Positions 6,681 to 42,162 of a stretch of 44,975 nt of DNA are shown here, in pieces. Below the pieces are notes generated by a model. The model was not told the origin of the DNA, did not search any database, and saw nothing but the letters and a program-made list of their open reading frames with translations. Positions within the stretch are counted from its first letter, which is position 1. Each line of letters begins with the position of its first letter. Origin of the DNA: Candidatus Aminicenantota bacterium (lineage in GTDB: Bacteria; Acidobacteriota; Aminicenantia; UBA2199); assembly GCA_023135565.1 (NCBI GenBank), contig JAGLSW010000583.1, positions 1-44,975 of the forward strand, in the 5' to 3' direction. The translations under genes were made by a program, and so were the position numbers.

Positions 6681-9566
6681 ATGAGTGAAACGAACAGGTT
6701 CAGTAGAGCAGCAGGAGATAGTTTTGTCGAAATCGACAACCCATACTATATTTATGATCCCAAATCGGGGGAACAATTTTATCATGAGGAAGTGATACAG
6801 AGAATTAGAGATATATTCAATGACCAGCCTGAAAGGAGGATCGTGGTGCTCCAGGGCAACCCCGGTTCCGGGAAAACAGGTACTTTAAAGAAAATTGCAA
6901 GAGAACCGGGATTGCTGGGAGAAAATTATATCTCTATTTACGTTAACTTAAAAAAAAATGCCAACCTCGATTTTAACGATTTGTTATTTTCTCTTTACAA
7001 AGATATGGTGGTGAACCTGAATAAGAGAGGATGCAGCATTCCGCAGCCCAATTATTTTGGAGAACGGCGCAAGAAAGATGATATTAATACCCTGGAATCG
7101 ATTTTTTTGACAATTGCATCCAATCTTCCCGAGGGAAAGATTGCGGTTTTAATTTTTGATGAATTGGATGATTTACTGGATAAGATTGAACCTGAAACGA
7201 TTTCTTCATTCATCAGGTATTTAAAAAATATTGAATATAATTGGAGCAGTTATAGGTTAATCATGGCGGTAGATAAGAGATTGTCCGATTTTACCGGCGA
7301 TAAAACCGTCAAGAGTTTGTTGGCTTCATCTCCAGGTATCGATGTGAATGAGATGCTGACCGAAGCAAATATTAGAAAGTTAATCATCGAACCGGTAAAA
7401 GGAACATTGAGATATGCAGAAGATGCGGTCAGGAGCATCATTTACTATTCAGGTGGAAGTCTTTTTTTTCAACAATTAATCTGCCATCAACTAGTAACCT
7501 ACATGGATAAAAAAAAGAAAAACCATTGTAGAAACGTTGATGTTGAACAAGCTATCAAAGGGATATTGAAAGGATCGATAGCTGAATTTGGATATTATTG
7601 GGAGAACAAGTTTTCCTCAATGGAGCGGATAGTTGCCTCTGCATTTGTGGATAGACGGATAACAGGAAGGAGAGGAAAACGATATACGCTAAAGAAAGGG
7701 ACGCTATTGGATAATATTTTGGGGAAAGAGGCATATAGGAAAATTGCGAAAATGTATTATTTCGGTTACCTCAATAAAATGGAAGGGAGGCGGTTTCATG
7801 AATTCCCGTTCAAGATTGCACTTTTGGGAAAATGGATACAAAGAGAGCACCCCTTTATAAAAACCGTTATACAAAATATCGATGCTGTTGTCGATAAAAT
7901 TGATCTTGAAACAACCATTAAAGAGATTGACAAGATCGCAGGAAAGAAATTACTTCCCTTCGATAAGGGGAAAATTTTAGACATCTCGAAAAAATGGCAC
8001 TCGCTTCTAAAGAATATAGTAAAGAACCGTTTTACTGCTAAAGCAAGCCAGTTAGAAGATTTTTTTAAAATTTTTTGCGGCATTTTAGATATAAAAATTA
8101 ATGAAGAGTCTTCATCCGGGGAGAATTGTTTTATTATCGATATAAAGAACTTGAGAATCGGTACTTTGGAGGAAGCCCTGTGTTTCATTCAGGATAGACC
8201 TGAACTGAACGAAAATGAGATTTCTTATATCGAACAACAGGCAGCAAGATTTGCCCAGGACGCACAGGATAGGTTGATCTTTTTCTTTTATTTTAAAAGG
8301 CTCGAAGGGATCGAGAACCTAACAAAAAAACCACATTTAAGCCTGATTACTATCAACGAAAACGATTTTAAAAAGATCATATTATCTGACAGACCACAGG
8401 AGGCTGCCAGAAATGTCATCTTCAGCAAACTCTCTTTGCAGCGGGTGTCTCCCTATGTTGTCGCTGGACCGAGTACAACAGTTTTTTATGGCCGCAGCAA
8501 GATTATTAACCGGATAAATAGTAATCCTAATACCAGTTATGCCATCGTTGGAGCCAGGAGAATCGGCAAATCTTCCCTGCAGATCAAAATAACGGAAAAC
8601 GCGATACATGGGCTAAATTATCTTTTTATGAACTTAGAATATGAATTTTCTATTACCAAAAGCTATAGACCGTTTCTTACAAGTTTAAAGTCTAAAATCG
8701 AAAAGAAGTTTAAAAAAAAGGTCGATTTTAATAAATTCCTTGTGGGCCCGGACATTTCGAAAATACCTGCGGTTGTAACTGATCTTTTGCAAAGGGGGCA
8801 AAAAATCACATTCGTTTTTGATGAGATCGACGACCTGATCGTATTCGACAGTAAGAACAACTTTAAATTACTGCGTATATTTCGCAGCCTGTCCCAGGAA
8901 AACATCTGTCAATTTATTTTTTCCGGTTTTCAGGAGTTATTCAAGCAGCAGAGAGATATAGAGAATCCTCTATACAATTTTTGCGAAGAGATAGAACTTG
9001 GACCACTAGAAAAAGAAGCGGCATTGGAGTTGATCACAAGCCCTATGGAGAGTATCGGAGTTCAGTATAAAAATTTAGAAGATAGGGAACTCATCCTGAG
9101 GTATACCGGTTGTCATCCGAACCTGCTGCAATTCTTTTGCAAAAAGTTGATTGAGAACGTTGAAAAACACCACAGATCAAAAGAAAGGAGGACCATCTTT
9201 AAAGAGGATATCGAGAAACTTTACGATACGAAATATGAAGAGTACATCATGAACGATGTATATATGTTTTCCACCTTGAATAATATCGAAAAGTTAATCC
9301 TTTTGCTGCTGGTAGAAGACCGATTAAGAAGGAGGAATACTTTTTCGGTGAACTGGATTAAAAGCAAATTAGCAAACGAAGGGATTGAAATACCTATAGA
9401 TGATATCGGTCGATACCTGAGAAATTTGGTTCAGCGTTTCATTATGGTTGATAGAGGGGGAGGTAATTACAATTTTGCTCTTGATGTTTTCCCGGAGATT
9501 TTGCGGAAAAGGATCGATGAATTTTATAAGAACAAAATTAGACTGGAGATAATGGCAAACGAGTAG
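6681..9566 (+). CDS. Double P-loop (STAND/AAA-like) ATPase, copy 1
   Basis: A 961-aa protein with two separate ATPase domains. Domain 1: Walker A GNPGSGKT (59-66) and Walker B IAVLIFDELDD (about 154-164). Domain 2: Walker A GARRIGKS (624-631), Walker B ITFVFDEIDD (709-718) and a GCHPNLLQFF motif near 810 resembling the GHPQML motif of AAA_35 proteins. Between them, residues 340-600 show no domain I recognise, and the C-terminus reads like a winged-helix tail. No signal peptide or membrane segment is visible. It is a close paralogue of the next gene. Inferred: a large regulatory or sensing ATPase of the AAA_16/ATPase_2/AAA_35 group, cytoplasmic. No nuclease or other effector domain is visible, so its output is unknown. 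Confidence 0.75.
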   Translation: MSETNRFSRAAGDSFVEIDNPYYIYDPKSGEQFYHEEVIQRIRDIFNDQPERRIVVLQGNPGSGKTGTLKKIAREPGLLGENYISIYVNLKKNANLDFNDLLFSLYKDMVVNLNKRGCSIPQPNYFGERRKKDDINTLESIFLTIASNLPEGKIAVLIFDELDDLLDKIEPETISSFIRYLKNIEYNWSSYRLIMAVDKRLSDFTGDKTVKSLLASSPGIDVNEMLTEANIRKLIIEPVKGTLRYAEDAVRSIIYYSGGSLFFQQLICHQLVTYMDKKKKNHCRNVDVEQAIKGILKGSIAEFGYYWENKFSSMERIVASAFVDRRITGRRGKRYTLKKGTLLDNILGKEAYRKIAKMYYFGYLNKMEGRRFHEFPFKIALLGKWIQREHPFIKTVIQNIDAVVDKIDLETTIKEIDKIAGKKLLPFDKGKILDISKKWHSLLKNIVKNRFTAKASQLEDFFKIFCGILDIKINEESSSGENCFIIDIKNLRIGTLEEALCFIQDRPELNENEISYIEQQAARFAQDAQDRLIFFFYFKRLEGIENLTKKPHLSLITINENDFKKIILSDRPQEAARNVIFSKLSLQRVSPYVVAGPSTTVFYGRSKIINRINSNPNTSYAIVGARRIGKSSLQIKITENAIHGLNYLFMNLEYEFSITKSYRPFLTSLKSKIEKKFKKKVDFNKFLVGPDISKIPAVVTDLLQRGQKITFVFDEIDDLIVFDSKNNFKLLRIFRSLSQENICQFIFSGFQELFKQQRDIENPLYNFCEEIELGPLEKEAALELITSPMESIGVQYKNLEDRELILRYTGCHPNLLQFFCKKLIENVEKHHRSKERRTIFKEDIEKLYDTKYEEYIMNDVYMFSTLNNIEKLILLLLVEDRLRRRNTFSVNWIKSKLANEGIEIPIDDIGRYLRNLVQRFIMVDRGGGNYNFALDVFPEILRKRIDEFYKNKIRLEIMANE

Positions 9567-9628
9567 AAATCCTTTTAAATGCAAAGAAAGTTACCCCAAA
9601 CTAATTTGATTTTTCGGAGGGATTTCTC

Positions 9629-9656
9629 TTGATTTTTTTTTATTTTGTATTATAAT
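9629..9656 (+). promoter_or_regulatory. Promoter of second 960-aa ATPase gene
   Basis: TTGATT at 9629-9634, 16-base T-rich spacer ending TTTTGTAT, TATAAT at 9651-9656. AAGGA at about 9678 serves the ATG at 9691. This promoter probably drives the run of closely packed genes from 9691 to 16485. Confidence 0.7.
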
Positions 9657-9690
9657 AAAGTCTTAAAAAAGATTATGAAGGATAAGTGAG

Positions 9691-12591
9691 ATGAATGAAG
9701 AGAGAGACTGTGGTGAAAAACCGAATATGGATGCTGCTCCGGCAGTGAAAGATAGCTTCAGCGGAATCGACAACCCTTACTATCTATACGATTCGGAGTG
9801 GGGAGAACAATTTTATCACGAGGATGTGATACAGCGAATTAAAAGTGTATTCAATAACCAGCCTGAACGGAGAGTCGTGGTTCTCCAGGGCAACCCCGGT
9901 TCCGGGAAAACAGGTACTTTAAAGAAAATTGAAAGAGAACCGGGATTGCTGGGAGAAAATTATGTCCCTATTTACCTTAACTTAAAAAAATATGCGGACC
10001 TTGATGTTGACGATTTGTTATTTTCTCTTTACAAAGATGTGGTGAGAAACCTGAATAAAAGAGGATACAGCATTCCTCAACCCAATTATTTTGGAGAACG
10101 GCGCAAGAAAGATAATATTAATACCCTGGAATCGATTTTTTTGACAATTGCTTCCAATCTCGCTGAGGGAAAAATTGCGGTTGTAATTTTTGATGAGTTG
10201 GATGATCTGCTGGATAAGACTGAACCCGAAACGATTTCCCTATTTATCAGGTACTTGAAAAATATTGAACATAGTTGGAGCAATTATGGCCTGATCATGG
10301 CCGGGGATAAAAGATTGCCCGATTTTACCGGCGATAAAACCGTCAAGACTTTGTTAGCTTCGTCTCCAAGTATCGATGTGAATAAGATGCTGACCGAAGC
10401 AAATGTTAAAAAGTTAATCATCGAACCGGTAAAAGGGAAATTGGTATATGCAGAAGATGCGCTCAAGAGCATCATTTACCATTCAGGCGGAAATTTGTTT
10501 TTTCAACAATTAATCTGTTTTCATTTGATAAACCTCTTAAAGAAAGAGCAGCGGAACCGTTGTACAAAAACGGATGTCGAACAGGTTGTAAAGGGAATAT
10601 TAGAAACCCCGACAGCGGAGTTTGGCTATTACTGGGAAAATAAATTTACTAAGGAAGCCCGGATAATCGCCTCTGCCCTGGCTGATGATAGGGTTACGGA
10701 AAGGAAAGGGAGTTTTTATGCTTTAAGAAAAGGTACGTTATTGGATAATATTTTCGATAATAGACTTTACGAAGAAATCGAAAAATTGGAAGCTTTCGGT
10801 TATCTCGATAGCATGGAAGAAGGGCAGTTTCCCCATTACCCTTTTAAAATCACCATCTTTGGAGAATGGATAAAAAAAGAACACCCTTTTATAAAAACTC
10901 TTATGGAAAATATCGATCATATAGCTGATAAGATAGATCTTGTCAATATCATTGAAGAGATCGAGAAGCTGCCGGCAAAGGAGCTGCTGCCCTTCGATAA
11001 GGAGAAAATTTTAGACATCTCAAGAAAGTGGTACTTGCTGCTAAAAAATATCGTAACGAACTGTTTCATTGAGGCGGTAAGCCAATTAGAAGAATTTTTT
11101 AACACTTTTTGCAGCACTTTAAATCTAAGAATCAAAAAAGGGTCTTTATACAGGGAGAATTATTTTATTATCGATATAGAGAATTTGAGGATCGGTAAAT
11201 TAGAGGAGGCCCTGTGCTTCGTTCAGGATAGACCGGAGTTGAAAAAAAATGATGTGTCTTATATCGAGAAACAGGCGGTCAGATTTGCCCAGGACGCACA
11301 GAACAGGTTAACCTTTTTCTTTTATTTTAAAAGGGTCGAAAGGATCGAGAACCTAACAAAAAAGCCACATTTAAGCCTGATTACTATCGAGGAAAACGAT
11401 CTCAAAAAAATCATACTATCAGACAGACCGCGGGAAGCTGCCAGGAAAGTAATCTTCAATAAACTCTCATTAGAGCGGGTATCTCCTTATACAATAGCCG
11501 GGCCGACTACAACAGTGTTTTATGGCCGCAGCAAGATTATTAACCGGATCAGTAGTAATTCCAATACCAGTTATGCTATCGTGGGAGCCAGGAAAATAGG
11601 GAAATCTTCACTGCAGCTCAAAATAACGGAAGACGCTATGCCTGGGGTAAATTATCTCTATATGGACTTAGAATATGAATTTTTCAAAGCCAAAAGCTAT
11701 AGACTTTTTCTTGCAAGTTTAAAGTCTAAAATCGAAAAAAAATTTAATAAAAAGGTCGATTTTAATAAATTTCCTTTGGGGCCGGACATTTCGAAAATAC
11801 CTGCTGTTGTCGATGATCTTTCTCAAGGGGGGCAAAAAATCATATTTGTCTTCGATGAGATCGACCATCTTATTGAATTTGACAGGAAGAACAACTTTAA
11901 ACTGCTGCGTATATTTCGTAAACTATCCCAGGAAAAAATTTGTCAATTTATTTTTGCCGGATTCGAGGAATTATTTCAAAAAAAGCGGGATTTAAAAAAT
12001 CCCCTGTACAATTTTTGTGAGGAGATAGTACTCGGGCCACTGGAAAGAGAAGCGGCATTGGAGTTGATCACAAGCCCTATGGAGAGTATCGGTGTTCAGT
12101 ATAAAAATTTAGAGGATAGGGAACTTATCCTTGGATATACCGGGTGCCACCCGAACCTGCTGCAATTCTTTTGCAAAAAATTGATCGAAAATTTGGATGA
12201 ACACCGTAAAGAAGATGATCGGAGAACCATTTTTAAGCAAGATATCGATAAGCTGTATGATACAGAATATGAAAAGTACATTATGGATGAGGTATATATG
12301 TTTTCCACATTAGATAGGATTCAGAAATTAATCCTGATCCTGTTGGTGGAAGATCGTCCAAAAGCGAAAGATGGGAAAACTTTTTCTATCAATAAAATAA
12401 GCAAGAAATTATTAAACGAAGGGGTTGATATCCAGGCGGATGAGATTAAAAAACACCTGGAAAACCTGGGGCAGCGCTTCATCCTGGTTGATAAAGGAGG
12501 AGGTAATTATAGTTTTGCGTTGGATGTTTTTCCGGATATTTTGAAAAGAAAAGCCGGAGGATCTTATAGAGAAAAATTAGATTGGAGATAA
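9691..12591 (+). CDS. Double P-loop (STAND/AAA-like) ATPase, copy 2
   Basis: A 966-aa tandem paralogue of the preceding gene, with the same architecture and long identical stretches in protein and DNA (for example the run coding for EREAALELITSPMESIGVQY). Domain 1: GNPGSGKT (67-74) and VVIFDELDD. Domain 2: GARKIGKS (632-639), IFVFDEIDH near 718-726 and GCHPNLLQFF. The N-terminus differs (about eight extra residues), as does the C-terminal tail after the winged-helix-like part. Only six bases separate it from the membrane-anchored AAA_35 gene at 12598, so the two are co-transcribed. Both P-loops are intact, so neither copy is decaying. Inferred: a partner or sensor for the AAA_35 proteins downstream. 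Confidence 0.75.
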   Translation: MNEERDCGEKPNMDAAPAVKDSFSGIDNPYYLYDSEWGEQFYHEDVIQRIKSVFNNQPERRVVVLQGNPGSGKTGTLKKIEREPGLLGENYVPIYLNLKKYADLDVDDLLFSLYKDVVRNLNKRGYSIPQPNYFGERRKKDNINTLESIFLTIASNLAEGKIAVVIFDELDDLLDKTEPETISLFIRYLKNIEHSWSNYGLIMAGDKRLPDFTGDKTVKTLLASSPSIDVNKMLTEANVKKLIIEPVKGKLVYAEDALKSIIYHSGGNLFFQQLICFHLINLLKKEQRNRCTKTDVEQVVKGILETPTAEFGYYWENKFTKEARIIASALADDRVTERKGSFYALRKGTLLDNIFDNRLYEEIEKLEAFGYLDSMEEGQFPHYPFKITIFGEWIKKEHPFIKTLMENIDHIADKIDLVNIIEEIEKLPAKELLPFDKEKILDISRKWYLLLKNIVTNCFIEAVSQLEEFFNTFCSTLNLRIKKGSLYRENYFIIDIENLRIGKLEEALCFVQDRPELKKNDVSYIEKQAVRFAQDAQNRLTFFFYFKRVERIENLTKKPHLSLITIEENDLKKIILSDRPREAARKVIFNKLSLERVSPYTIAGPTTTVFYGRSKIINRISSNSNTSYAIVGARKIGKSSLQLKITEDAMPGVNYLYMDLEYEFFKAKSYRLFLASLKSKIEKKFNKKVDFNKFPLGPDISKIPAVVDDLSQGGQKIIFVFDEIDHLIEFDRKNNFKLLRIFRKLSQEKICQFIFAGFEELFQKKRDLKNPLYNFCEEIVLGPLEREAALELITSPMESIGVQYKNLEDRELILGYTGCHPNLLQFFCKKLIENLDEHRKEDDRRTIFKQDIDKLYDTEYEKYIMDEVYMFSTLDRIQKLILILLVEDRPKAKDGKTFSINKISKKLLNEGVDIQADEIKKHLENLGQRFILVDKGGGNYSFALDVFPDILKRKAGGSYREKLDWR

Positions 12592-12597
12592 AAACAA

Positions 12598-13839
12598 ATG
12601 GAAGAAAATCCCTATGAATACACAGGCCCTTTAGACCCGGTAAAACATGAACTTACTTGTGTCCCCAGGGCAGTAGATGTGAATAGAGTGATTGCAGGAA
12701 TAAAAAAGGGTGATTATTGGGCAGTTTTAGGGCCACGGCAAATAGGCAAAACTACGTTTCTAAGGCAGATTAAGCAGCAATCTGAAAACGAATATCATGT
12801 ATATATAGATTTTGAGGTCATACCATCGATTAAAGAAAGGGACTTCTATTGTTGGTTGAGGGATGAGATATTTAATAGAGTTCCTTCAAAGCAAGATTTT
12901 CAGAAAAAACATGACTTTGAGAATGAAAATCCCGGTTTCGGTTTCCTCTGTTTTTTAGAATGGTTCCGAGCTGAAGACAAAAAAAAAAAGATCATTCTTC
13001 TTTTCGATGAGATTGATAGACTGCCTTTCCTGAGGGAATTTTTACATATCTGGCGAAAAGTTTTCCACGAACGATATGAAAATGAAGAACTAAGGCAATA
13101 CGCTCCGGTTATAACGGGATCAGTAGATTTAATAGAGAAAACAACCGGCCCAACATCTCCCTTCAATATTGCAAAATTATTATATCTTAAAGACTTTTCA
13201 CATGGGCATTCGGAAAATTTAATTAACAGATCTTTTAAAAAGTTAAATATTAATATCGAACATAAGGCAAAGAACAAATTGGTATCCCGAATATCTGGTC
13301 ACCCGCAAATGCTCCAGCATGCCTGTTATATTTTGGTTGACAGGGCAGGCAAGCCGAATGTCACTATAACTGGAAAAGAAGTGAAAGAAGCGATAGATGA
13401 ACTGATGGTTTTAAATTCGAATCTCGATACCTTGAAGCAAAATATAATAAACAACAAAATTCTTGAGAGCTTACTTAGAGATATTTTAAATGGAAAGAGG
13501 AGGAAATTTTATCCTTATAAAGAATTTGCAATATCTGGAGTCGGGGCTATCACTAATAAAAAATCCAATTGTGCAATTAGAAATAAGGTTTACCGAAAAT
13601 GTATTATTGATTTTATGAAAAAAAGATACTCTCAGTCCCCGGTTCAAAAGAAAAAAAATAAAGATAATCAGGATAGAATCGTGAATACTCTATCCATTAT
13701 ATTAAGTCTTTTTTCTACAGTAATTGGACTCATATCATTATTAGCGGATTATTCTCCAGGAGTTATCACAGCGATTTCTCTGTTAACATTAGTACTCATT
13801 TTTTTCCTGGTTTATGTCATAGGAAAGAGGCACAGCTAA
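12598..13839 (+). CDS. AAA_35-like ATPase with two C-terminal membrane helices
   Basis: A 413-aa protein. Residues 1-340 are an AAA_35 module closely related to the N-terminus of the PtuA-like fusion: GPLDP near the N-terminus, Walker A GPRQIGKTT, Walker B IILLFDEID, ITGSVDL and GHPQMLQ. After a short basic linker, residues 361-409 form two hydrophobic helices (about 365-384 and 389-409) separated by ADYSPG, ending in the basic tail GKRHS. The domain therefore sits on the inner membrane facing the cytoplasm. TTGGAG lies upstream of the ATG, and the stop TAA directly abuts the ATG of the kinase fusion. Inferred: a membrane-output version of the same ATPase module. Two-helix tails act as membrane effectors in several defence systems, but a simple anchor is equally possible. 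Confidence 0.75.
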   Translation: MEENPYEYTGPLDPVKHELTCVPRAVDVNRVIAGIKKGDYWAVLGPRQIGKTTFLRQIKQQSENEYHVYIDFEVIPSIKERDFYCWLRDEIFNRVPSKQDFQKKHDFENENPGFGFLCFLEWFRAEDKKKKIILLFDEIDRLPFLREFLHIWRKVFHERYENEELRQYAPVITGSVDLIEKTTGPTSPFNIAKLLYLKDFSHGHSENLINRSFKKLNINIEHKAKNKLVSRISGHPQMLQHACYILVDRAGKPNVTITGKEVKEAIDELMVLNSNLDTLKQNIINNKILESLLRDILNGKRRKFYPYKEFAISGVGAITNKKSNCAIRNKVYRKCIIDFMKKRYSQSPVQKKKNKDNQDRIVNTLSIILSLFSTVIGLISLLADYSPGVITAISLLTLVLIFFLVYVIGKRHS

Positions 13840-15765
13840 ATGCATAACAATCCATATAAATACCTTGGCCCCTTAAATCCTCATGAAGATAAACTCGTTC
13901 TTGTAGAAAGGAACGGATATCTTGAAAAAGTCATCCACGGGATCCTGAATGGCAGCTATTGGTCCATTTCGGGCCCGAGACAGGTAGGTAAGACCACATT
14001 TTTACGGCAAATCCGGCATGGGCTGTCGGATGCTTATTATATCTCTTTTGACCTGGCAATTTCTATAACTAATGAAGAAAGTTTTTATCGTTGGTTGAGA
14101 GACAAGGTACTCAGTAGAATTTCTTCTCAACACCCTCCCTCCGCCACTGATTGGGATGATAACAGCCCCGGTTTTAGTTTCATTAGTTTTTTAGAAAAAT
14201 TCAGGGCAGAGGATAATAATAAAAAAATCATCTTCCTTTTCGATGAGATTGATAGTCTACCCTTCCTGAACGATTTTTTGCATATCTGGCGAAAAATATT
14301 TCACGACCGCTATGATAACAGGGAGTTAGACCGGTATACGGTTATTGTAACCGGTTCGGCTGATTTAATCGCCCAAACGGCTGGCAAAACTTCTCCTTTC
14401 AACATTGCGGAAAGATTATATTTAAAAGATTTTTCGGATCAAGAATCAGAAAAACTTATCGAAATACCTTTTAGAAAATTAGGAATTAAAATTGAAACGC
14501 TTGCAAAAGATGAAATTTTATCCCAGCTTGGGGGGCATCCGCAAATGCTTCAGCAAGTCTGTTTTCATCTGGTGAATATCGCATATGAAGAGAATAGATG
14601 TGTTTCTTTGAGAGATGTAGAAGTTTCGATAAATAGTTTATTTACAAACAATACAACCATTGATTTGCTAAAAAATGACCTGGGAAAAAGCAAAAGACTT
14701 GACCAGCTAATCAGGGAAATCTTTGCGGGTAAAAAGAAGAAATACTTCCCTTATAAAGATTTTTCAACCAGGGGAGCAGGTCCCATCAGTGAAGATGAAA
14801 ACTCTTCTTGTTCCATTCGCAACAAGGTCTTCGAAGAATATCTTAAATATATTCTGGATATTAAAATCGATGATCCGGGTGTTAAAAAATATAAAAAAAT
14901 GAGACTAATGTATGAACCCAGGTTTCGAGGATACGAGAAGATCGGAGAGGGAGGACGAGGGATTATATATAAAACCAGGGATATGTTTCTGGGTAGAACA
15001 GTAGCTGTCAAAGAGCTTGGTAGTGACATAACCCATAGTAAAGAGAACTTTGAAGAGCTTCTTAGAGAAGCCCGGGCTATAGCAAAATTAGAGCATCCTA
15101 ATATCGTTAGGGTTTATGATGTTCTGCCGACTGAAGATGGATACCGAACTATAATGGAGTATATTGAAGGGAAAAATTATGTAGAGATTCTTAAAAAAGA
15201 AAAAAAAATAGACCTTAAAGAAGTACTGTTAGTAGGGAAAAGTTTATTTGCCGCCCTAAGCTACTCCCATAAGAAAGGCGTGATCCATAGGGATATCAAG
15301 CCGGGCAACATTATGAAAAATCGTGGCAATGTCATTAAAGTTATCGATTTTGGGATAGCTATTATTTCCGAGACTTATAATAGCCAAAATGAATCCAGAT
15401 TCATTATCGGTTCTCCTAAATATATATCACCGGAACAAGTCAAGAAGGAACTGGTGGATCATCGGTCGGATATCTATTCTGCTGGGATTACAATGTTTGA
15501 GTTGGTAACCGGGAGAGCGCCTTATACAGGGCGAAGTAGCGAAATCTATCAGAAACATCTGTATGACCCTGTCCCGAAAGTCAGCAAATTTAGACCGGGG
15601 TTTCCTGATGAGTTTGCTAAATTAATCGAGAAATGTATACAAAAAGGGAAAGAAAAAAGGTTCCAGAGTGCCGGTGAAGCGTTGGATAAGCTGGAGTCAT
15701 TAGAAAAGAAACTGAGAATTTTGAATTTTAAGGATGAGAGCGTCACCCAGAAACTGCAAGTATAA
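13840..15765 (+). CDS. AAA_35-like ATPase fused to Ser/Thr protein kinase
   Basis: A 641-aa protein. Residues 1-350 are the third AAA_35 module in this locus (Walker A GPRQVGKTT, Walker B IIFLFDEID, VTGSADL, GHPQMLQ). Residues 360-635 are a Hanks-type kinase: glycine loop GEGGRG, VAVKEL with the ATP-binding Lys at 391, HRDIKPGN (483-490), DFGIA (503-507), SPKYISPEQ and HRSDIYSAG. All catalytic residues are present, so the kinase should be active. There is no membrane segment. The ATG directly follows the stop of the preceding gene. Known: Hanks kinases phosphorylate Ser/Thr. Inferred: the ATPase module controls the kinase. The substrate is unknown; neighbours such as the 231-aa protein downstream are candidates only by position. 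Confidence 0.85.
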   Translation: MHNNPYKYLGPLNPHEDKLVLVERNGYLEKVIHGILNGSYWSISGPRQVGKTTFLRQIRHGLSDAYYISFDLAISITNEESFYRWLRDKVLSRISSQHPPSATDWDDNSPGFSFISFLEKFRAEDNNKKIIFLFDEIDSLPFLNDFLHIWRKIFHDRYDNRELDRYTVIVTGSADLIAQTAGKTSPFNIAERLYLKDFSDQESEKLIEIPFRKLGIKIETLAKDEILSQLGGHPQMLQQVCFHLVNIAYEENRCVSLRDVEVSINSLFTNNTTIDLLKNDLGKSKRLDQLIREIFAGKKKKYFPYKDFSTRGAGPISEDENSSCSIRNKVFEEYLKYILDIKIDDPGVKKYKKMRLMYEPRFRGYEKIGEGGRGIIYKTRDMFLGRTVAVKELGSDITHSKENFEELLREARAIAKLEHPNIVRVYDVLPTEDGYRTIMEYIEGKNYVEILKKEKKIDLKEVLLVGKSLFAALSYSHKKGVIHRDIKPGNIMKNRGNVIKVIDFGIAIISETYNSQNESRFIIGSPKYISPEQVKKELVDHRSDIYSAGITMFELVTGRAPYTGRSSEIYQKHLYDPVPKVSKFRPGFPDEFAKLIEKCIQKGKEKRFQSAGEALDKLESLEKKLRILNFKDESVTQKLQV

Positions 15766-33323: not shown

Positions 33324-33626
33324 ATGAAAAATTCTAATTTAAAAGCACTGATGGCCCTGTTAAAGAAAGAGAAGCCGTTCCTTAAAAAAAAGTATAAAGT
33401 AAGGGAGATCGGTATTTTCGGTTCTTATGTTCGCGGGGATCAGCAGTTGCAGAGTGATATAGACGTTCTTGTGGATTATATTGACAATTCGATAGACCTT
33501 TTTGATTTTTTAGATTTGAAGGAGTATCTTTCCGGTCTAATGGGTAAGGATGTGGATTTAGTCATGAAGTCCGGTTTGAAACCGGTGATAGGTAAACGTA
33601 TTTTAAATCAAGTAATATATGTCTGA
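33324..33626 (+). CDS. mntA: MntA-type minimal nucleotidyltransferase antitoxin
   Basis: A 100-aa protein with the nucleotidyltransferase signature IGIFGSYVRGDQQLQSDIDVLVDY: GS followed by the DxD pair, and a later Asp in KDVDLVMK. Known: MntA antitoxins add AMP to HepT toxins and silence them. It overlaps the next gene by eight bases, so the pair is coupled. Confidence 0.9.
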   Translation: MKNSNLKALMALLKKEKPFLKKKYKVREIGIFGSYVRGDQQLQSDIDVLVDYIDNSIDLFDFLDLKEYLSGLMGKDVDLVMKSGLKPVIGKRILNQVIYV

Positions 33627-33981
33627 AAAACGAAATATTATTGACTATCTAAAGGATATTCTCGATGCTGTTGGTAAAGCAGGGAATTTTGTTGAGGGTT
33701 TATCCTTTGAAGATTTCCTGGATGATGACAAAACTATCTATGCAACTATATATGCACTGGAAATCATCGGAGAGGCAGCAGCCCAAATCCCGGATGATTT
33801 AAGGGAAAAGTACAGCGATATTCCCTGGAAGAAAATGGTAGGAATGCGAAATGTTTTAATTCATCAATACTTTGGGTTTTCTACGCCGGTAATCTGGAAT
33901 ACCATAAAAAATAGATTTCCCGAAGTGAAGAAATTGATAGGTGAGATGTTAACAAGTGAGATGAATGAAATAGTTGAATAA
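33619..33981 (+). CDS. hepT: HepT-type toxin (HEPN, DUF86)
   Basis: A 120-aa HEPN-domain protein: IYALEIIGEAAAQIPDDLREKY, then PWKKMVGMRNVLIHQYFG with the RNxxxH-type catalytic motif and the Tyr that MntA modifies. Known: HEPN toxins are ribonucleases. Complete and paired with mntA. Confidence 0.9.
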   Translation: MSEKRNIIDYLKDILDAVGKAGNFVEGLSFEDFLDDDKTIYATIYALEIIGEAAAQIPDDLREKYSDIPWKKMVGMRNVLIHQYFGFSTPVIWNTIKNRFPEVKKLIGEMLTSEMNEIVE

Positions 33982-34447: not shown

Positions 34448-36115
34448 CTATTCTTCTTTGACATCCAGGGCTGCGATTTTCTTCTTCAACCGCTCTAACC
34501 GCTTCTCAAAGTCCCGCCGCTGCGATTCCGTCAAATCCACTGCCGCCAACCCCTGGCGCACAAAGTCGAGAGCTTTGTTATAATCCTTTTCCCGGTGCTC
34601 AAAATGAACCGATAACTCCCTGAAAGCAAAACGGTCTTCCCGGTTTGACAGGTATTCCCACAGCTCCCTGGCTTCATCGTAAAGTTTCTTTTTTTTTACG
34701 ATGATTGATTTGCGTTTTGCCGCCCTGGCAAGCACGTCATCCCTCTGCGCACTCTCTTTGACAATCCCATACAATTCATTGGCCTTTTCAAGATCGCCGT
34801 ACTTTTCATACAACATGGCTGTACCCAGTATCTCACCTTCATCAGCGGCAAAAGAGATGTCTTTCGTATACTTCGTGCCCAGCAAAAGGAGCGCGGCTAA
34901 ACCGAGCAGATCGAGGGCATTATGTTCGATTACTTTTTCTATTAAAGAAAAGTCGTTACTCCTCAAATAATTGAAATACAGCGCCGGGATATGGCTGCTG
35001 TCGATATCCTCCTGCCGGGAAAGCCCTAACAGTATTTCTCCTAAAAATCCCAGGCTCCTGGATTCATAGGTGTGCTTCCAAAGGGTGCGGGCCGGGAAAA
35101 GAAAATCTAAATGAGGTTTTTTTAACAGGGGAAACCGCTTCCTTTGCAAAATGTACCTGGTCTCCATGAGCGGGTAATCGTAGGATTTCCCGTTGTAAGT
35201 GACTACCCCGGAAAAATCCCTGCTGTCGAGGAACCTGTCTACTTCTTCTAAGAACTCCTCCTCTTTAGATAGATCATTCAAGATAAAAACTTTTACGTAG
35301 AAATGGTTATGGGCAAAGAAACCGAATCCTAATAGGAAAGGGATGGTGCCGGTTCCTCCTGAAAGCCCGGTAGTCTCAGTATCGAAAAATAAAAGTTCCG
35401 GTGGGGAAACTTGTAAAAACTCTTTATCCGCGAAAATGACGGCCAGTTGTTCGGGAGAAACGTCCTGCCATTCTTCGAGTTTGCAGTCCCCGAAAGTCGA
35501 ACTCAGCGGATAAGAAAAATCACGAATGATGAAGGCATTCTCTTCTTCGGGCGCTGCCTCGTTAATAGGCGAAGCATTTGTTTGGCCGTGTAGAGAGGAA
35601 TTTTGCGGGTTTGTATGTTTTTTTAAACCTTTGTAATCTTTATAATTTGCGTAATCTGAGGTTTTGGCCGGGTGCGCCGCCCTTTCTGTGCTGTTTATGT
35701 GCGAGAATCTTTTTTTTTTCCGAAAGCCTTCCGAAAGTGAAGAAATCGTTTTACCTCTTTTATCGGCTTGGGGCGCCGCATCCCCTGTGCTTTTTAAAGG
35801 CGAAAAGCTTGTCTGTCCTGGAAAGTTTTTTGGATTTATAGGAGTCGTTTTGTCACTCTTATCGGCTGGGTGCGCCGCATCCCCTGGACTTTTTATATGC
35901 GAAGAGTTTGTTTTTTCCCGAAAGTCTTTTGGAGGTGAAGAAATCTTTTTATCCCTTTTATCGGCTGGGGGCACTGCCCCCCCCTTGAGGGTGAGTTTTA
36001 CTAATTTATCGAGTTTTTCCCTGGTGGACAGACCTTCTTTTGAGTCGATTTTTTCCCATCTTTTTTCTATTTTGTCTTGTTTCAGGCGGTCTAATTTTTT
36101 TTTTAATTTACTCAT
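34448..36115 (-). CDS. YprB/RNase_H_2-type exonuclease-like protein with N-terminal repeats
   Basis: A 555-aa protein. Residues 1-45 are basic helix. Residues 50-155 consist of three 33-aa repeats (PPADKRDKKISS type), low complexity and probably disordered. Residues 240-420 are an RNase H-like 3'-5' exonuclease domain (PF13482): LLFFDTETTGLSGGTGT, VVTYNGKSYDYPLMETRY and IEHNALDLLGLAALL with the Asp residues expected for metal binding. The C-terminal 120 residues look like TPR helices. Cytoplasmic; the nucleic acid substrate is unknown. Lies 128 bases downstream of the M23 gene on the same strand. Confidence 0.8.
   Translation of the reverse strand: MSKLKKKLDRLKQDKIEKRWEKIDSKEGLSTREKLDKLVKLTLKGGAVPPADKRDKKISSPPKDFREKTNSSHIKSPGDAAHPADKSDKTTPINPKNFPGQTSFSPLKSTGDAAPQADKRGKTISSLSEGFRKKKRFSHINSTERAAHPAKTSDYANYKDYKGLKKHTNPQNSSLHGQTNASPINEAAPEEENAFIIRDFSYPLSSTFGDCKLEEWQDVSPEQLAVIFADKEFLQVSPPELLFFDTETTGLSGGTGTIPFLLGFGFFAHNHFYVKVFILNDLSKEEEFLEEVDRFLDSRDFSGVVTYNGKSYDYPLMETRYILQRKRFPLLKKPHLDFLFPARTLWKHTYESRSLGFLGEILLGLSRQEDIDSSHIPALYFNYLRSNDFSLIEKVIEHNALDLLGLAALLLLGTKYTKDISFAADEGEILGTAMLYEKYGDLEKANELYGIVKESAQRDDVLARAAKRKSIIVKKKKLYDEARELWEYLSNREDRFAFRELSVHFEHREKDYNKALDFVRQGLAAVDLTESQRRDFEKRLERLKKKIAALDVKEE
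35666..35970. repeat. 99-bp tandem repeat in coding sequence
   Basis: The motif GGC(C/T)(T/G)GG.GCGCC begins at 35666, 35765, 35864 and 35963, exactly 99 bases apart, giving three full units and part of a fourth. On the minus strand they code for 33-aa units ending SPGDAA, STGDAA and STERAA. The G/C-rich start of each unit is hairpin-like (GGGTGCGCCGCATCCC). Confidence 0.85.
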
Positions 36116-36243: not shown

Positions 36244-37167
36244 TTAATCAAGAATAAAATTCAGCGGGTTGATACGTTTACCCTGGTATATTACTTCGTA
36301 ATGAAGATGAGGCGCCGTGCTTCTTCCCGTGCTGCCCACATACCCGACTACCTGGCCTCTTTTCACGCGGTCTCCCTCTTTCACTTTAAAAGATACCAGG
36401 TGACCATAACGAGTCTGGTAACCGAATCCATGTTCGATGTGGATTAAGTTTCCTAACACTCCTTTATATTCGGCAATAAGTACATACCCATCGGCGGTAG
36501 CTATTACCGGGTTGCCGATCTGGGTTGAGATATCCTGGCCACCGTGGAACTGGGTTTGCCCGGTAAGAGGATTTTTCCGCATCCCGAAGGAATCGGTTAG
36601 ATAACCCCTGGTGGGCCAGCGTGAAGGTGTATGAGCAAGTCTTATCTTCTGTTCATCTATATGGTCCTGTACAAATTTCAAGGATTTTTCGATTTTTTTG
36701 GCATCCTTAGAGATTCCTTTTACTTTATCTATTAATTTTTCTCCGGCCTGCTCCCGGGTTAGGTTTACAGACTTACCCGGTAGTTCGATACTGCCGGTAA
36801 CATTTCTAATCGGTTCGCCCCCGCCTGAACCGACCTCCTTTAATGCATGTGGAGAGGTTAAACCCACTGCCACCAGGATTCTCTGCTTATAGGTTTCCAT
36901 CCGGGCCAGGCTTTCATTGATAATTTTGACCTGCGAATCCAATTCTGCTATTGTTTTTTCCTTTTTAACATTATCCGTCTCTAGTGTTTTCATCTTTTCT
37001 TTATCGAAAGAGATGGTCAGATAATCGAAAATCATGAACCCGGAGATGAGCATTAGAGCCAGGAAAGCAAGGATAGAGTTCCTTATTAGCCTGGAAGAGA
37101 GGACAAACTCCTTGTTTGTCGATGTGGCATCTGAAACTATAATAATTGAATAGTTTTTTTCTTTCAT
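36244..37167 (-). CDS. M23 family metallopeptidase, membrane-anchored
   Basis: A 307-aa protein with start at 37167 (MKEKNYSIIIV). The ATG 15 bases upstream overlaps the -10 box and is unlikely. One membrane helix (about 30-48), a coiled coil (about 55-90) and a C-terminal LytM domain: FGMRKNPLTGQTQFHGGQDIS with zinc-binding His and Asp, YGHL and APHLHYEV with the HxH motif. All zinc ligands are present, so it should be an active peptidoglycan endopeptidase in the periplasm. The layout is like that of cell-division and shape-linked M23 proteins. Confidence 0.85.
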   Translation of the reverse strand: MKEKNYSIIIVSDATSTNKEFVLSSRLIRNSILAFLALMLISGFMIFDYLTISFDKEKMKTLETDNVKKEKTIAELDSQVKIINESLARMETYKQRILVAVGLTSPHALKEVGSGGGEPIRNVTGSIELPGKSVNLTREQAGEKLIDKVKGISKDAKKIEKSLKFVQDHIDEQKIRLAHTPSRWPTRGYLTDSFGMRKNPLTGQTQFHGGQDISTQIGNPVIATADGYVLIAEYKGVLGNLIHIEHGFGYQTRYGHLVSFKVKEGDRVKRGQVVGYVGSTGRSTAPHLHYEVIYQGKRINPLNFILD

Positions 37168-37180
37168 TCTTTTAGATTGC

Positions 37181-37210
37181 ATTATAACATTTTTTTGGGG
37201 AATAAATCAA
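37181..37210 (-). promoter_or_regulatory. Promoter of the M23 gene
   Basis: On the minus strand: TTGATT (37210-37205), 18-base spacer, TATAAT (37186-37181). Transcription should start near 37175, leaving a very short leader before the ATG at 37167. Confidence 0.6.
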
Positions 37211-37306: not shown

Positions 37307-38941
37307 ATGAGTAAAAAAACGATTGTCCTGGCAGATAATAGTTATACGATCCGCCGAATAGTCGAGTTGTCTTTTTCGGAAGAAGAAGAAATCGGACTGG
37401 TCAGCTTTGAAGATGGGGCAAATCTAAAAGAAAAATTGCTCGAATTGAAGCCGGAAATTGTACTGGTGGACATAAAGCTTCCCGAATTTAACGGGTATGA
37501 AGTTTGCAAATTTATCAATACTTCAGAAGAACTTAAACATACGAAAGTATTCTTGATGAAAGGTGGATTCGAACCCATCGATGAAGGGCTGTTGACTAAT
37601 CTAAGATATGCTACTATTATCACGAAACCCTTCGATTCCAATGCTCTTGTGGCAACGATAAAGAAGATGTTATCAGCCCCGCAGAGAACTCCGTCCACCG
37701 TTCCCGAACAGACTCCGGCAGCACCCGGTATGATGCCGGGAATCGAAGCCGGTAGTGTTGGCGGGATCCCTGCAACAAAAGAGGATTTCGGGGCGCGTGG
37801 AATACTTGACGATAAAATAAGTCCCGCAGCAGTGCCATATCAACCTATGATGGATGATGTGCAGCCTTCTGAAGAGATAACCCAGGGGACGCAGCCTGAA
37901 GTTGATACCCTGGCGCCGACTATGTCTGATGATATGGCGAATCCTTTTAATGGGGATCTCGCTTTCGGCCAGTCGGGAGCTGGCGCGGTATATCCTGAAG
38001 AGGTAGATATAAAACAGAATATCCACAAGCAAGAAAGCGATTTAGATGTCGGGTCTTTTACCCAGGAAGCTTTGCAAATCCAGCAGAATTTAGATAAGCA
38101 GGACAGCGGCCCAGCAGGTGACCAATTAAGTTTCGGCGGCCAGTTAGGCGCAGAGGCGCCTGATATTTTCGCGGGGCAGGCAGCGGACATCCCGGGTGTG
38201 GCACAGGGTGCCCCGGTCGCTGCTCCGGTGGTAGACGGAGCTCCTGCCGGTACAAGTGGACAAATGTTTGCCGGTGAGGAAATAGCCGCTCCAATGCAGG
38301 GCGGTGAAGAATTCGGCCGACAGGCCGGAGCAGTGGGAAGCGGCGGGATGGAATCCCAACAGGAAGTAGAAGAAGTGCTCGACCATGAACAGATTAACTT
38401 AGAGCAAGATCTGATGCCCGATGCCGGGGATGCGTTCGCCCCGATCGAGCAGCAGCCCCCCTTTGCCGACAGCAGCCCCGCGCAGGAGATGCAGCAGCCC
38501 GCGGCCTTTGAAAGCCCGGTAGGTGTGGATACTCCCGCGCCCGAAGCGGCCATCCCCGGTGCGTCTAATGAAGTCGGCGGACTGCCGATGGATAGCCACA
38601 CAGCACCTACTATGGCGGAAGAATTCCAGGTTCCCGGGATGGAGCAGCCGGCATCCTTCGAGGAAGCACCGGCTGTCGAGCCACCGCTGCAAACCGGACC
38701 GGCAGCGGACATGGAAATTCCACCCCGGCAGGAAGCCGCTGCCGGCGGTCAAGAAGAAGACCTAACCGGAATCCCCGCCGTGCAGAAAGAGCAAATTATG
38801 CATAAAGTTGAGGATAAGCTGGCAATTGCTATAAAAGAAATCTTATGGGATGTGGTGCCTCCCATGGCGGAAAAAATTATAAAAAATGAAATTGAAAAAT
38901 TAAAAACAGAGGTTGATGAATCTTTTGGCAGTACAGGATAG
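37307..38941 (+). CDS. Receiver-domain protein with long disordered tail
   Basis: A 544-aa protein. Residues 1-120 are a CheY-like receiver: acidic Asp10, phospho-acceptor Asp55 (IVLVDIKLPEFNGYEVC) and Lys107 in TKPFD. The usual Ser/Thr after strand 4 is absent: VFLMKGGFEPIDE. Residues 125-490 are Pro/Ala/Gly/Glu-rich and probably disordered. The C-terminal 50 residues form a helical tail (VEDKLAIAIKEILWDVVPPMAEKIIKNEI). Similar receivers with such a conserved tail occur in deltaproteobacteria and Acidobacteriota. Inferred: a scaffold or localisation protein rather than a transcription factor. No histidine kinase is near. Confidence 0.8.
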   Translation: MSKKTIVLADNSYTIRRIVELSFSEEEEIGLVSFEDGANLKEKLLELKPEIVLVDIKLPEFNGYEVCKFINTSEELKHTKVFLMKGGFEPIDEGLLTNLRYATIITKPFDSNALVATIKKMLSAPQRTPSTVPEQTPAAPGMMPGIEAGSVGGIPATKEDFGARGILDDKISPAAVPYQPMMDDVQPSEEITQGTQPEVDTLAPTMSDDMANPFNGDLAFGQSGAGAVYPEEVDIKQNIHKQESDLDVGSFTQEALQIQQNLDKQDSGPAGDQLSFGGQLGAEAPDIFAGQAADIPGVAQGAPVAAPVVDGAPAGTSGQMFAGEEIAAPMQGGEEFGRQAGAVGSGGMESQQEVEEVLDHEQINLEQDLMPDAGDAFAPIEQQPPFADSSPAQEMQQPAAFESPVGVDTPAPEAAIPGASNEVGGLPMDSHTAPTMAEEFQVPGMEQPASFEEAPAVEPPLQTGPAADMEIPPRQEAAAGGQEEDLTGIPAVQKEQIMHKVEDKLAIAIKEILWDVVPPMAEKIIKNEIEKLKTEVDESFGSTG

Positions 38942-39015: not shown

Positions 39016-41046
39016 GTGGAAAAGGTTTACAATTTTATCGAGACAGAAAAGAAGCGGCACAGGGTCCGGCAGGAGATCAAATTACTCGCAGCCGGTAATC
39101 ATACGGGGCAGCAGTCTTTCTTGTTGGTTTTATCTTCCGGCGGAGTTGACTGCCCGCTTCCTTTGGAGCAAGTTCTAATATTTACCGGCGCGGACATCAT
39201 TGTAAGACGAAGAAAAATGCAGGATTGTTTTACCTTTTTGTGTCCCCGGGTTGATTTTACCGAAACCGCTGCCCGGGAAACTGCCGGATGGGAGCAGGAA
39301 ATAGACAGGCTGGGTATTTTTGTAGATTGGAGCCGGGTGAAGTCTGCCCCTGTTTCCCGGGAAAAAGAGATTGTGATCGAAGCCTTCGTACAATTATTCA
39401 CAGCAGGTAAGATTTACCGCGGTGAAAGGGAGCAGTGGTTTTTGAAGAGCGGGGAGATGACCGCTTCCGCAGTTGATGCGGTTGAACAGGGGGATATCAG
39501 GTTTTTCCCGGCGAAGTGGGCAAAAATTTTCGTCGATTGGCTGCGCAGCAGCGGTGATTGGTGTATCTCGCGCTCCACAGGGCGGGGGTATAGGGTGCCG
39601 GCGTATTGCTGCGGTAACTGCGGCAGCCTGTCGGTCACAGGGGAACAGCCCGGTGTTTGCAGTCGCTGCGCCTCAAAGGATATTGTCCGGGAAACGGGAT
39701 TTTTAGACGCCCGGTTTGTTTCGGCATTCCGGCCTTTTTTGCTCCTGAGTCGGGAGGAGCAGCCGGGGGCCGCGGTTTTTCGCATTTCTCGCCCCATGGA
39801 TCTGATGGTTGCCGGTTTCGATATGTTGTTTTCGCAGGCAGCCGGGATGGTAATGATGGGGCTGCACTTCGGCAAGGAAGTTCCTTTTAGGGAAGTGCTG
39901 GTAAATGGAGTGATAAAAGGAGATAAAGCGGCAGATAATATCGAGGCATATGGGGCTGATGCCTTCAGGTTCAGCCTGGCGCTGCAGGCCATACCGGGTA
40001 CGGCTGTAACTTTTTCCTCTAACCGGCTGAAAGGCAGCAGAGCTTTCATAAATAAAATATGGAATGCCGCGCGCTATACTTTGTTGAATTTAGCAGGGGA
40101 TGAAGATTTCGACATCGATGTAAAGAAAATAACCACGGTGGATAAATGGATTCTCCATTACCTCAACAAGACTATTGTCAAAGTGAACGAGCATTTAGAT
40201 AATTTCCGGGTGAATAAAGCGGCGCAGCTGCTTTATCGTTTTGCCCGGCGCGAGTACTGCGGTTGGTATTTAGAATTTTCCCGCGGTGACATAGATAATC
40301 TTCATACCAGGAAAGTCTTAAAAATAGTCCTTTTCCGGCTGCTCCAGTTGTTACATCCTTTTATCCCCTTCGTGACCGAGGAAATCTACCAAAAAATCGA
40401 GACCGGCGCCGTCTTCCTGCTGCATACGGAATTTCCCTCGCTCAGCAGCGATATTATTTTTAACGAAGAATATCAACACATAGAACTGTTGAAAAAAGTG
40501 ATAACAGGAATCCGCAGAACCAGGACAGGGAACAGGATTGCAGCCAACAAAAAGATTAAGGTTTTCTTGAAAAGCGGTTCTGAAAAAGAAAAAAGGATAT
40601 TATCTAAGGAGAAAAAATATTTCGATTTTTTAGCCGGTAGTTCCGGCACGGCGATTGTAAAGGATTTCCGGGGCTTGCCCAAAGGTTTTAGGGGGTTGTG
40701 CCGCAACTGGGAGATACTGCTGCCTTTTGCCGGTGAAGAAGAGAGGTTAGCGGAGTTAGCCAGGTTAAAACAGGAATTAGAAAAAGTGAGCCTCCGGGTT
40801 TTGGATTTCGAGGAAAAGCTGGCGCACGAAGCTTTTGTCGATGAAGAACCGGTGCCTTCTATGGGGGATTATAAGAAGCGGACGGCGTCCGCACCCTATG
40901 AGGGGCCTGGGAAACACATTCCCGACCAGGTTGACCGAAAAGTTCGTTTTTTCAGCAAACTTTCACGAAGTATTAGTAAGAAGAGGCTCCAGCAGGCCAT
41001 TGCCGGGAAGGAGAAAATTGAAAAAACCATTCATGATATATCTTAG
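39016..41046 (+). CDS. Valyl-tRNA-synthetase-like protein lacking catalytic motifs and editing domain
   Basis: A 676-aa protein with a GTG start behind AGGA. It aligns by motif with ValRS over its whole length: IDRLGIFVDWSR (96-107), GKIYRG (131-136), EQWFLK (139-144), DWCISR (181-186), zinc-ribbon Cys at 199, 202, 215 and 218, LDARFVSAFRPF, MMGLHFGKEVPFREV, EAYGADAFRFSLAL, the anticodon-binding region (FINKIWNAARY, LLQLLHPFIPFVTEEIYQKI) and a C-terminal coiled coil. Missing: the HIGH motif (PLEQ, 48-51, in its place), TDHAG, the whole CP1 editing domain (deleted near 137) and KMSKS (deleted near 301-305). ValRS is usually about 880 aa. It cannot be a normal ValRS. Possible roles: tRNA-Val binding, regulation, or an accessory factor. 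Nearest neighbour downstream is birA. Confidence 0.85.
   Translation: MEKVYNFIETEKKRHRVRQEIKLLAAGNHTGQQSFLLVLSSGGVDCPLPLEQVLIFTGADIIVRRRKMQDCFTFLCPRVDFTETAARETAGWEQEIDRLGIFVDWSRVKSAPVSREKEIVIEAFVQLFTAGKIYRGEREQWFLKSGEMTASAVDAVEQGDIRFFPAKWAKIFVDWLRSSGDWCISRSTGRGYRVPAYCCGNCGSLSVTGEQPGVCSRCASKDIVRETGFLDARFVSAFRPFLLLSREEQPGAAVFRISRPMDLMVAGFDMLFSQAAGMVMMGLHFGKEVPFREVLVNGVIKGDKAADNIEAYGADAFRFSLALQAIPGTAVTFSSNRLKGSRAFINKIWNAARYTLLNLAGDEDFDIDVKKITTVDKWILHYLNKTIVKVNEHLDNFRVNKAAQLLYRFARREYCGWYLEFSRGDIDNLHTRKVLKIVLFRLLQLLHPFIPFVTEEIYQKIETGAVFLLHTEFPSLSSDIIFNEEYQHIELLKKVITGIRRTRTGNRIAANKKIKVFLKSGSEKEKRILSKEKKYFDFLAGSSGTAIVKDFRGLPKGFRGLCRNWEILLPFAGEEERLAELARLKQELEKVSLRVLDFEEKLAHEAFVDEEPVPSMGDYKKRTASAPYEGPGKHIPDQVDRKVRFFSKLSRSISKKRLQQAIAGKEKIEKTIHDIS
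40878..40909 (+). repeat. Hairpin repeat family 2 copy inside the ValRS-like gene
   Basis: GCGGAC-GGC-GTCCGC, a perfect 6-bp hairpin, followed by ACCCTATGAGGGGCCTG. Same layout as 3146-3177, but with a different paired stem. It lies in frame, in the C-terminal coiled-coil region (peptide KRTASAPYEGPG). Confidence 0.6.
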
Positions 41047-41144: not shown

Positions 41145-42023
41145 ATGAAAAAATATAACGAGTACCCCGGATTTTTAGAAGTAGTAAAATTGGCGAGCTG
41201 CGGTTCTACCAATGATTATTTAAGAGAAAATTACCGCCGGTATGAAAGGGATTTTCCTATCTTAGTGACTGCATCCCGGCAGTCGGCGGGTAGGGGACGG
41301 GCAGGCAGGACCTGGGATTCCCCGGCGGGAATGGGATTATACTCTTCGTTCGGGTTTTTTTTGCCGGTCGGCGTGAGTCTTAATCTTTTGCCTTTAGCCG
41401 CCGGGATAAGTGTGGTCGAAGCGTTGGCAGGAATAAGCGGTGTGCGGGGATTCGGTTTAAAGTGGCCCAATGATATTTTGTACAGCGGCAGGAAGATATG
41501 CGGCATCCTGGTTGACAATATGGTGCAGAAAGAGAGGATTTTTTGTATAACCGGGATCGGGATTAATTTGAACCAACAGGCGGTTGATTTTCCCCGTGAG
41601 TTAAGAGACCGGGCCATCTCTTTAAAAACAATAACAGGGAAAACCTATGAAATCGAAGCCGTCAACAAAGCGCTCTCCCATATTTTTTTTTCATGGGTAG
41701 AGAAACTAAAGAGCGGCGGGAATAAAGAGATTGTCGAGGCAGCCGGGCGGCTGAGTGAATTTTTAAAAGGCAGGCCTATTGCTTTCCACCGGGGCGACAA
41801 AATTACGGAAGGCGTTTTTAAGGGACTCAATCATGATGGCGGTCTTTTATTGGCCGCACCTAACGGCGATAAGAAAATATATTACAGCGGCGAAATCGTT
41901 ACAAAATTAAGGCTGCTGCGCCGGGAAGAGCTTGAAAGAAAACACCGGCAGGGCTACACTGAGAAGCCGGTTGAGAAAGGTGAATTCAGTGATTTCGAAG
42001 ATGAGCAGTTGTGGGGCGATTAA
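41145..42023 (+). CDS. birA: Biotin--[acetyl-CoA-carboxylase] ligase, monofunctional
   Basis: A 292-aa protein with start at 41145 (MKKYNEYPGF). The frame opens at 41091, but that part is read from the intergenic repeat. Motifs: CGSTNDYLRE, SRQSAGRGRAGRTWDSPAGMGLYSS (biotinyl-AMP loop), LKWPNDILYSGRKICGIL with the catalytic Lys, and ITGIGINLN. C-terminal SH3-like part with HDGGLLLAAPNGDKKIYYSGEI, then a charged extension. No N-terminal helix-turn-helix, so it does not act as a repressor. Attaches biotin to the carboxylase carrier protein. Confidence 0.9.
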   Translation: MKKYNEYPGFLEVVKLASCGSTNDYLRENYRRYERDFPILVTASRQSAGRGRAGRTWDSPAGMGLYSSFGFFLPVGVSLNLLPLAAGISVVEALAGISGVRGFGLKWPNDILYSGRKICGILVDNMVQKERIFCITGIGINLNQQAVDFPRELRDRAISLKTITGKTYEIEAVNKALSHIFFSWVEKLKSGGNKEIVEAAGRLSEFLKGRPIAFHRGDKITEGVFKGLNHDGGLLLAAPNGDKKIYYSGEIVTKLRLLRREELERKHRQGYTEKPVEKGEFSDFEDEQLWGD

Positions 42024-42162
42024 TGAAAAGAGGTGAGCTGCGCTTCTCTTTGCCCTGGGGTTTTAAGTGGCTGTCTTTTTACTAATACTTGGTGAAAGTT
42101 TTCTAAAAAAAAGGAAATTCTTTTGGATGACCTTATAGGCTGCGGGCATGCGCCCGCCTTGT

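Follow-up and report, generated by a model that had tools for sequence, protein, structure and literature searches.

We found that the gene at positions 39016-41046 (+ strand) of the window, by which we mean the whole 44,975-nt stretch of DNA analysed here, is the native valS, still at its ancestral locus, and that it has been amputated, having lost the catalytic motifs and the editing domain of valyl-tRNA synthetase (ValRS). Our preferred reading, to which we assign a probability of roughly 0.6, is that the native valS was displaced by a foreign ValRS and has been kept as a pseudo-synthetase that binds RNA, probably tRNA-Val.

The amputated valS and its locus

The window belongs to a 7.6-Mb genome (G000) assembled in 1261 contigs and 87% complete; all genomes compared appear to be draft-grade assemblies. 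Its valS is open without interruption over 676 codons from a GTG start, in agreement with the intact frame reported by a first-pass annotation made from the sequence alone. Pfam matched the product to Anticodon_1 (PF08264, E=3.5e-34; residues 376-517, positions 40141-40566, +) and to tRNA-synt_1 (E=1.4e-27), and its NCBIfam scores, 335 bits for TIGR00422 (cut-off 612) and 365 for PRK05729 (cut-off 704), fell below the family cut-offs. The nearest match in named genomes was from ‘Candidatus Aminicenantes’ at 35% identity, and all hits of that search were ordinary ValRSs from other taxa. Scanning the window against Rfam gave no family above threshold.

Motifs were called from alignments with 41 bacterial ValRSs and with intact in-family ValRSs such as that of genome G021. 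At the HMGH position the window protein reads P49-L50-E51-Q52 (39160-39171, +); the KMSKS loop is deleted at residues 302-308 (39919-39939, +), where the alignment reads IKGDKAA--DNIEAYGADAFRF; and the CP1 editing domain, about 186 aligned residues, is missing between R135 and Q140-W141, with the junction at residues 137-140 (39424-39435, +). The first-pass annotation had named these three losses and was correct on each, as it was on the survival of DWCISR, the Cys-rich zinc ribbon CCGNCG...CSRC (39607-39672, +) and the anticodon-binding region, but it overlooked a further deletion of about 33 aa in the Rossmann domain, after the first Rossmann motif, and an insert of about 37 aa in the arm. 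The C-terminal module, comprising the SC fold, the anticodon-binding domain and the arm, spans residues 312-676 (39949-41043, +). Its last part, residues 574-676 (40735-41043, +), is the coiled-coil tRNA-binding arm, delimited by alignment and by AlphaFold2 secondary structure with helices at 574-603 and 635-651. The AlphaFold2 model was confident (pLDDT 84, pTM 0.83) and its best solved fold match was Thermus thermophilus ValRS-tRNAVal (1gax; E=1.7e-32, TM 0.73 by query). Compared with bacterial ValRS (TIGR00422/PRK05729; 1gax), the window copy thus shares the gene place, the C-terminal module, anticodon-binding domain and arm included, and a large part of the Rossmann scaffold, but lacks HIGH, KMSKS and CP1 and scores under the family cut-off. 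Among the other fold matches was the Mycoplasma mobile LeuRS (3ziu), a natural class I synthetase about 620 aa long. That enzyme has no CP1 editing domain but retains its catalytic motifs and activity, whereas the window remnant is without catalytic motifs.

The arm insert, within residues 619-658 (40873-40984, +), is an in-frame copy of a genome-wide interspersed repeat of about 110 bp with the palindromic core GCGGACGGCGTCCGC. This repeat has more than 20 copies in the genome, several of them within long open frames, and appears to behave like Rickettsia palindromic elements; related copies include L002-L008, and a partial copy lies at 42074-42111 (-) of the window.

Gene order places the remnant in the native valS position. 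Its conserved neighbours are an RNase H-like (YprB-type) protein (34448-36115, -), an M23 peptidase (36244-37182, -), a response regulator with a receiver domain (37307-38941, +) and a birA-type biotin protein ligase (41160-42023, +), and the order YprB-like / M23 / response regulator / valS or remnant / birA is shared by the loci examined in family f1, allowing for contig ends. The junctions of valS with the response regulator and birA are short or overlapping in most loci. Since the core order response regulator - valS - birA also occurs in G035, a member of another family, it is older than f1. The first-pass annotation had proposed a paralogue; the constancy of the gene order and the age of its core instead identify it as the displaced native gene and not a duplicate. 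In keeping with this, the active ValRS of the genome is of another type, only 28-30% identical to the native ValRSs of the family.

This second enzyme, on contig C1041, is the only other ValRS found in G000. It is about 880 aa long, carries both HVGH and KMSKS, reaches 1115 bits against the NCBIfam model alt_ValS (cut-off 900) and also matches PRK13208; judged by its motifs, it is the working valine enzyme of the genome. The separate valS that the first-pass annotation expected therefore exists and looks active, but it is foreign and not of the native type. An active but divergent native ValRS was rejected, because the catalytic motifs are missing and a complete HVGH/KMSKS ValRS is present in the same genome. 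A split synthetase was likewise rejected, no separate native catalytic half having been found in G000 or ten relatives, where the fragments that turned up resemble either the foreign ValRS or class I synthetases of other kinds. Contamination of a single assembly was rejected as well, given that remnant and foreign ValRS recur across genomes of the family with the remnant always in the same place.

Distribution of remnants and foreign enzymes

Family f1 consists of uncultured bacteria, and its sample comprised 34 genomes from nine genera. A native ValRS without a foreign one was present in 21 of the 34, with HIGH and KMSK in those checked; the native valS of G002 and G032 is truncated by contig ends, and no ValRS was found in two incomplete genomes, G019 and G025. 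Foreign ValRSs occurred in eleven genomes, and ten of these, spanning five genera, carried an amputated native valS. The remaining genome, G021, combines an intact native valS (887 aa) with a foreign enzyme of the alt_ValS type (L080, L081), and could represent an intermediate state preceding amputation.

Measured mostly from stop to stop, the remnants are 676 aa long in G000 and G001, 673 in G007, 678 in G018, 565 in G004, 486 in G006, 485 in G012, 465 in G008, 452 in G014 and 351 in G013. All ten frames are intact and all ten lack KMSKS, so that the relatives show the kind of loss described by the first-pass annotation and none of the frameshifted decay that would mark a dying gene, although they follow no single fixed loss pattern. 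In the G018 remnant (L079, 1149-3182, -), HLGH is kept while KMSKS and CP1 are gone; it is the sole relative keeping HIGH, indicating that HIGH loss was not the first step in every lineage. No named bacterial family of such architecture was found, as the first-pass annotation had supposed, and our search of open-licence papers for ValRS-like or truncated ValRS proteins yielded no bacterial case.

Every remnant genome contained a foreign ValRS, either whole or split at contig ends (the gene is interrupted in this way in G004, G006, G012 and G013). The foreign enzyme is of the alt_ValS type in g1, g6 and g7, and of a bacterial type of about 1087 aa, with HMGH and KMSKS, in g4 and g8. The alt_ValS-type protein ends without the bacterial coiled-coil arm, whereas the enzyme of about 1087 aa carries its own.

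Across the class (142 genomes), no amputated native ValRS was recognised outside f1, short contig-end frames having been inspected in part. Two genomes outside f1 have lost valS cleanly from this place: in G089, whose ValRS is of a foreign type and 1095 aa long, birA directly follows the response regulator at a distance of 48 bp, and in G100 the spacing is 3 bp with no valS between. These loci indicate that complete loss is possible and that the operon does not force retention, but such loss was seen in 0 of 10 replaced f1 genomes. Retention of the remnant is peculiar to family f1.

The number of amputations was approached through three trees. In that of four neighbouring genes, the intact G021 paired with G013, which has the shortest remnant (support 100/99), giving at least two changes of state and three on the best tree. 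The same pairing appeared in the rpoB tree, of which only the g1/g7 part was used because G011, G017, G025 and G031 were in wrong frames. The gene tree of the C-terminal module instead placed g1 with G007/G018 (94/98) and may be compatible with a single origin among the short-branch remnants. Since there are two foreign enzyme types and the deletions break at different points, the simplest account is probably that of several independent amputations, their number being uncertain.

Constraint on the retained module

Erosion of the catalytic half varies widely, and the C-terminal tRNA-binding module is the constant feature of the remnants. With G021 as reference, the N-terminal part had lost 210-542 of its 556 residues, compared with 0-8 of 331 residues for the C-terminal module across the ten remnants. 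When the deletion blocks of each lineage were placed at random, the probability of sparing the module to the observed degree was 0.25 for G007, 0.03 for G000, 0.005 for G008, 0.003 for G006, 0.002 for G013 and 0.00005 for G004. Still present in most remnants are an N-terminal ‘Y...E..W’ stretch and a ‘DIxxRRxxMQ’ helix; that of G013 has wholly lost the catalytic domain and is practically a bare C-terminal module.

We estimated omega (dN/dS) by the Nei-Gojobori method on pairs that are partly saturated, with bootstrap intervals. For the C-terminal module, three pairs gave 0.34 (95% 0.24-0.49), 0.23 (0.17-0.31) and 0.13 (0.07-0.22), the value of 0.13 being that between the window gene and its same-genus orthologue, and a further pair with saturated dS gave about 0.1. 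The module of the remnants is thus under purifying selection. Together with the intact frames of the relatives, this bears out the earlier view of a maintained protein rather than a pseudogene, for which dN/dS had been named as a check. Intact ValRS pairs gave 0.09-0.14, and the N-terminal part of the remnants 0.25-0.43, with all bootstrap intervals below 1. For what is left of the catalytic part, the pairs G000/G001 and G007/G018 gave 0.27-0.28, indicating that this remainder is also under purifying selection and does something there too. The module of the remnants has a higher rate of evolution than that of intact ValRSs, with long branches for G004, G013 and g6, suggesting that part of the constraint may be relaxed. 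Divergences among remnants are deep (dS from 0.34 to saturation).

Several changes within the module recur. Residue 411 (40246-40248, +) is W in 66 of 68 intact ValRSs and R in 8 of 10 remnants from five lineages; the remnant codon is CGG (as in the window) or CGA, and intact genes have TGG. In a control with six other ValRSs drawn at random, 3 of 200 trials gave a rare residue common to five or more of them, which makes the shared W411R suggestive but not proof. The net charge of the anticodon-binding part was +1 to +11 in remnants versus -6 to +3 in 20 intact members of the family (p about 1e-5, with no correction for relatedness), and three neighbouring proteins had no consistent charge shift. 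The anticodon contacts of T. thermophilus ValRS, which we take to be K581, F588, L650 and E651, align with K347, Y354, L419 and E420. K347, W349, N350 and L419 are kept in all ten remnants and E420 in nine; an aromatic residue at the position of Y354 is kept in eight and lost in G007 and G018.

Proposed role and competing explanations

Under the preferred reading, a ValRS gained by horizontal transfer and encoded at another locus would have taken over aminoacylation, thereby freeing the native enzyme from catalysis and editing. In-frame deletions, probably on more than one occasion in the family, would then have eroded the catalytic half, and selection would have kept the SC fold, the anticodon-binding domain and the coiled-coil arm, leaving a free-standing protein that would bind tRNA-Val or, more generally, structured RNA. 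The C-terminal half of ValRS grips the anticodon and elbow of tRNA-Val, and the arm contacts the T-arm of the tRNA (PMC5766645), making a tRNA-Val- or structured-RNA-binding protein the most likely identity of the remnant. Judged from the sequence, its ligand is probably RNA; that the specific ligand is tRNA-Val we put at a little under even, and another RNA may be bound instead. Candidate tasks include those of a tRNA chaperone or sequestering factor, an uncharged-tRNA sensor, and an adaptor presenting tRNA-Val to another enzyme, perhaps guiding a modification enzyme. These considerations suggest that the retained half does a second RNA-related job. We tentatively propose that the native f1 ValRS has a second, non-aminoacylating and hard-to-lose function in its anticodon-binding domain and arm, which each replacement would expose.

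The most economical rival is translational coupling to birA, by which the frame would be kept for operon reasons only, for the sake of birA expression, as a useless protein shrinks by in-frame deletions; a stop or frameshift would lower the transcription or translation of birA downstream. The position of valS between the response regulator and birA with tight junctions, and the fact that every change seen is in frame, accord with such coupling. However, it predicts deletions anywhere, whereas the C-terminal module was spared in six of six lineages, and an omega near 1, whereas the module gave 0.13-0.34; full deletion was also available, as G089 and G100 illustrate. We consider this explanation unlikely. 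Slow decay of a redundant gene, with frames intact because the losses are recent, is very improbable: the native valS was made redundant and the remnant branches are long, but ten frames have stayed intact over deep divergences, omega is well below 1 and the deletions are one-sided.

The remnant might otherwise serve the foreign ValRS in trans, supplying its missing arm as a tRNA-binding cofactor in the manner of Arc1p or Trbp111, free-standing tRNA-binding factors that aid synthetases and whose folds differ from that of the remnant. All remnants do keep the arm that the alt_ValS-type enzyme lacks, and remnants were found only alongside a foreign ValRS; but they are kept nonetheless in g4 and g8, where the foreign enzyme has an arm of its own, and elsewhere in the class a foreign ValRS functions in genomes that have no remnant. 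We give this account a small chance. Alternatively, the C-terminal module could have ceased to bind RNA and become a protein-protein interaction part, contacting the response regulator or acting as a dominant-negative translation partner, to which the conserved adjacency to the response regulator, W411R and other changes common to several lineages, and the missing aromatic residue in G007 and G018 would be congenial. This proposal is doubtful, for the gene order predates the family, as G035 indicates, and adjacency alone does not point to an interaction with the response regulator; the basic shift also fits nucleic acid better.

Other synthetase descendants, namely the GCN2 HisRS-like domain, HisZ and PoxA/EpmA, have lost aminoacylation and taken another role. 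These are of paralogous origin and have preserved much of the catalytic fold, whereas the remnant is a displaced native enzyme that has discarded its catalytic half. The closest functional analogue that we found is human DALRD3. This vertebrate protein lacks the catalytic motif, binds particular tRNA-Arg species and guides METTL2 to them (PMC7237682). Like the remnant, whose tRNA binding is putative, it has an anticodon-binding domain of synthetase type and no catalytic motif, but its domain is of the ArgRS-type DALR kind, its partner is known, and it stems from an unrelated event and is not a native gene that was displaced yet left in position.

The essential role of aminoacyl-tRNA synthetases usually makes any second function difficult to isolate; here nature seems to have separated the two, probably several times. 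With lengths running from 887 down to 351 residues, the series directly delimits the minimal functional unit and supplies ready constructs for learning what the tRNA-binding half of ValRS does by itself. It also carries a warning for annotation, in that remnants resemble ValRS yet should be unable to charge tRNA.

Elsewhere in the window, on the + strand, positions 3401-6510 encode a Septu-like pair, in which a PtuA-type ATPase with an extra N-terminal AAA_35 (STAND-like) domain precedes a PtuB-type protein. A series of large AAA_35/ATPase_2 proteins follows at 6681-15765 (+), possibly a conflict or signalling cluster, in which the protein at 13840-15765 (+) carries at its C-terminus a protein kinase domain that matches kinase models of the PD-T4-6 type. 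An MntA/HepT-type toxin-antitoxin pair, consisting of a nucleotidyltransferase and a HepT-like protein, lies at 33324-33981 (+).
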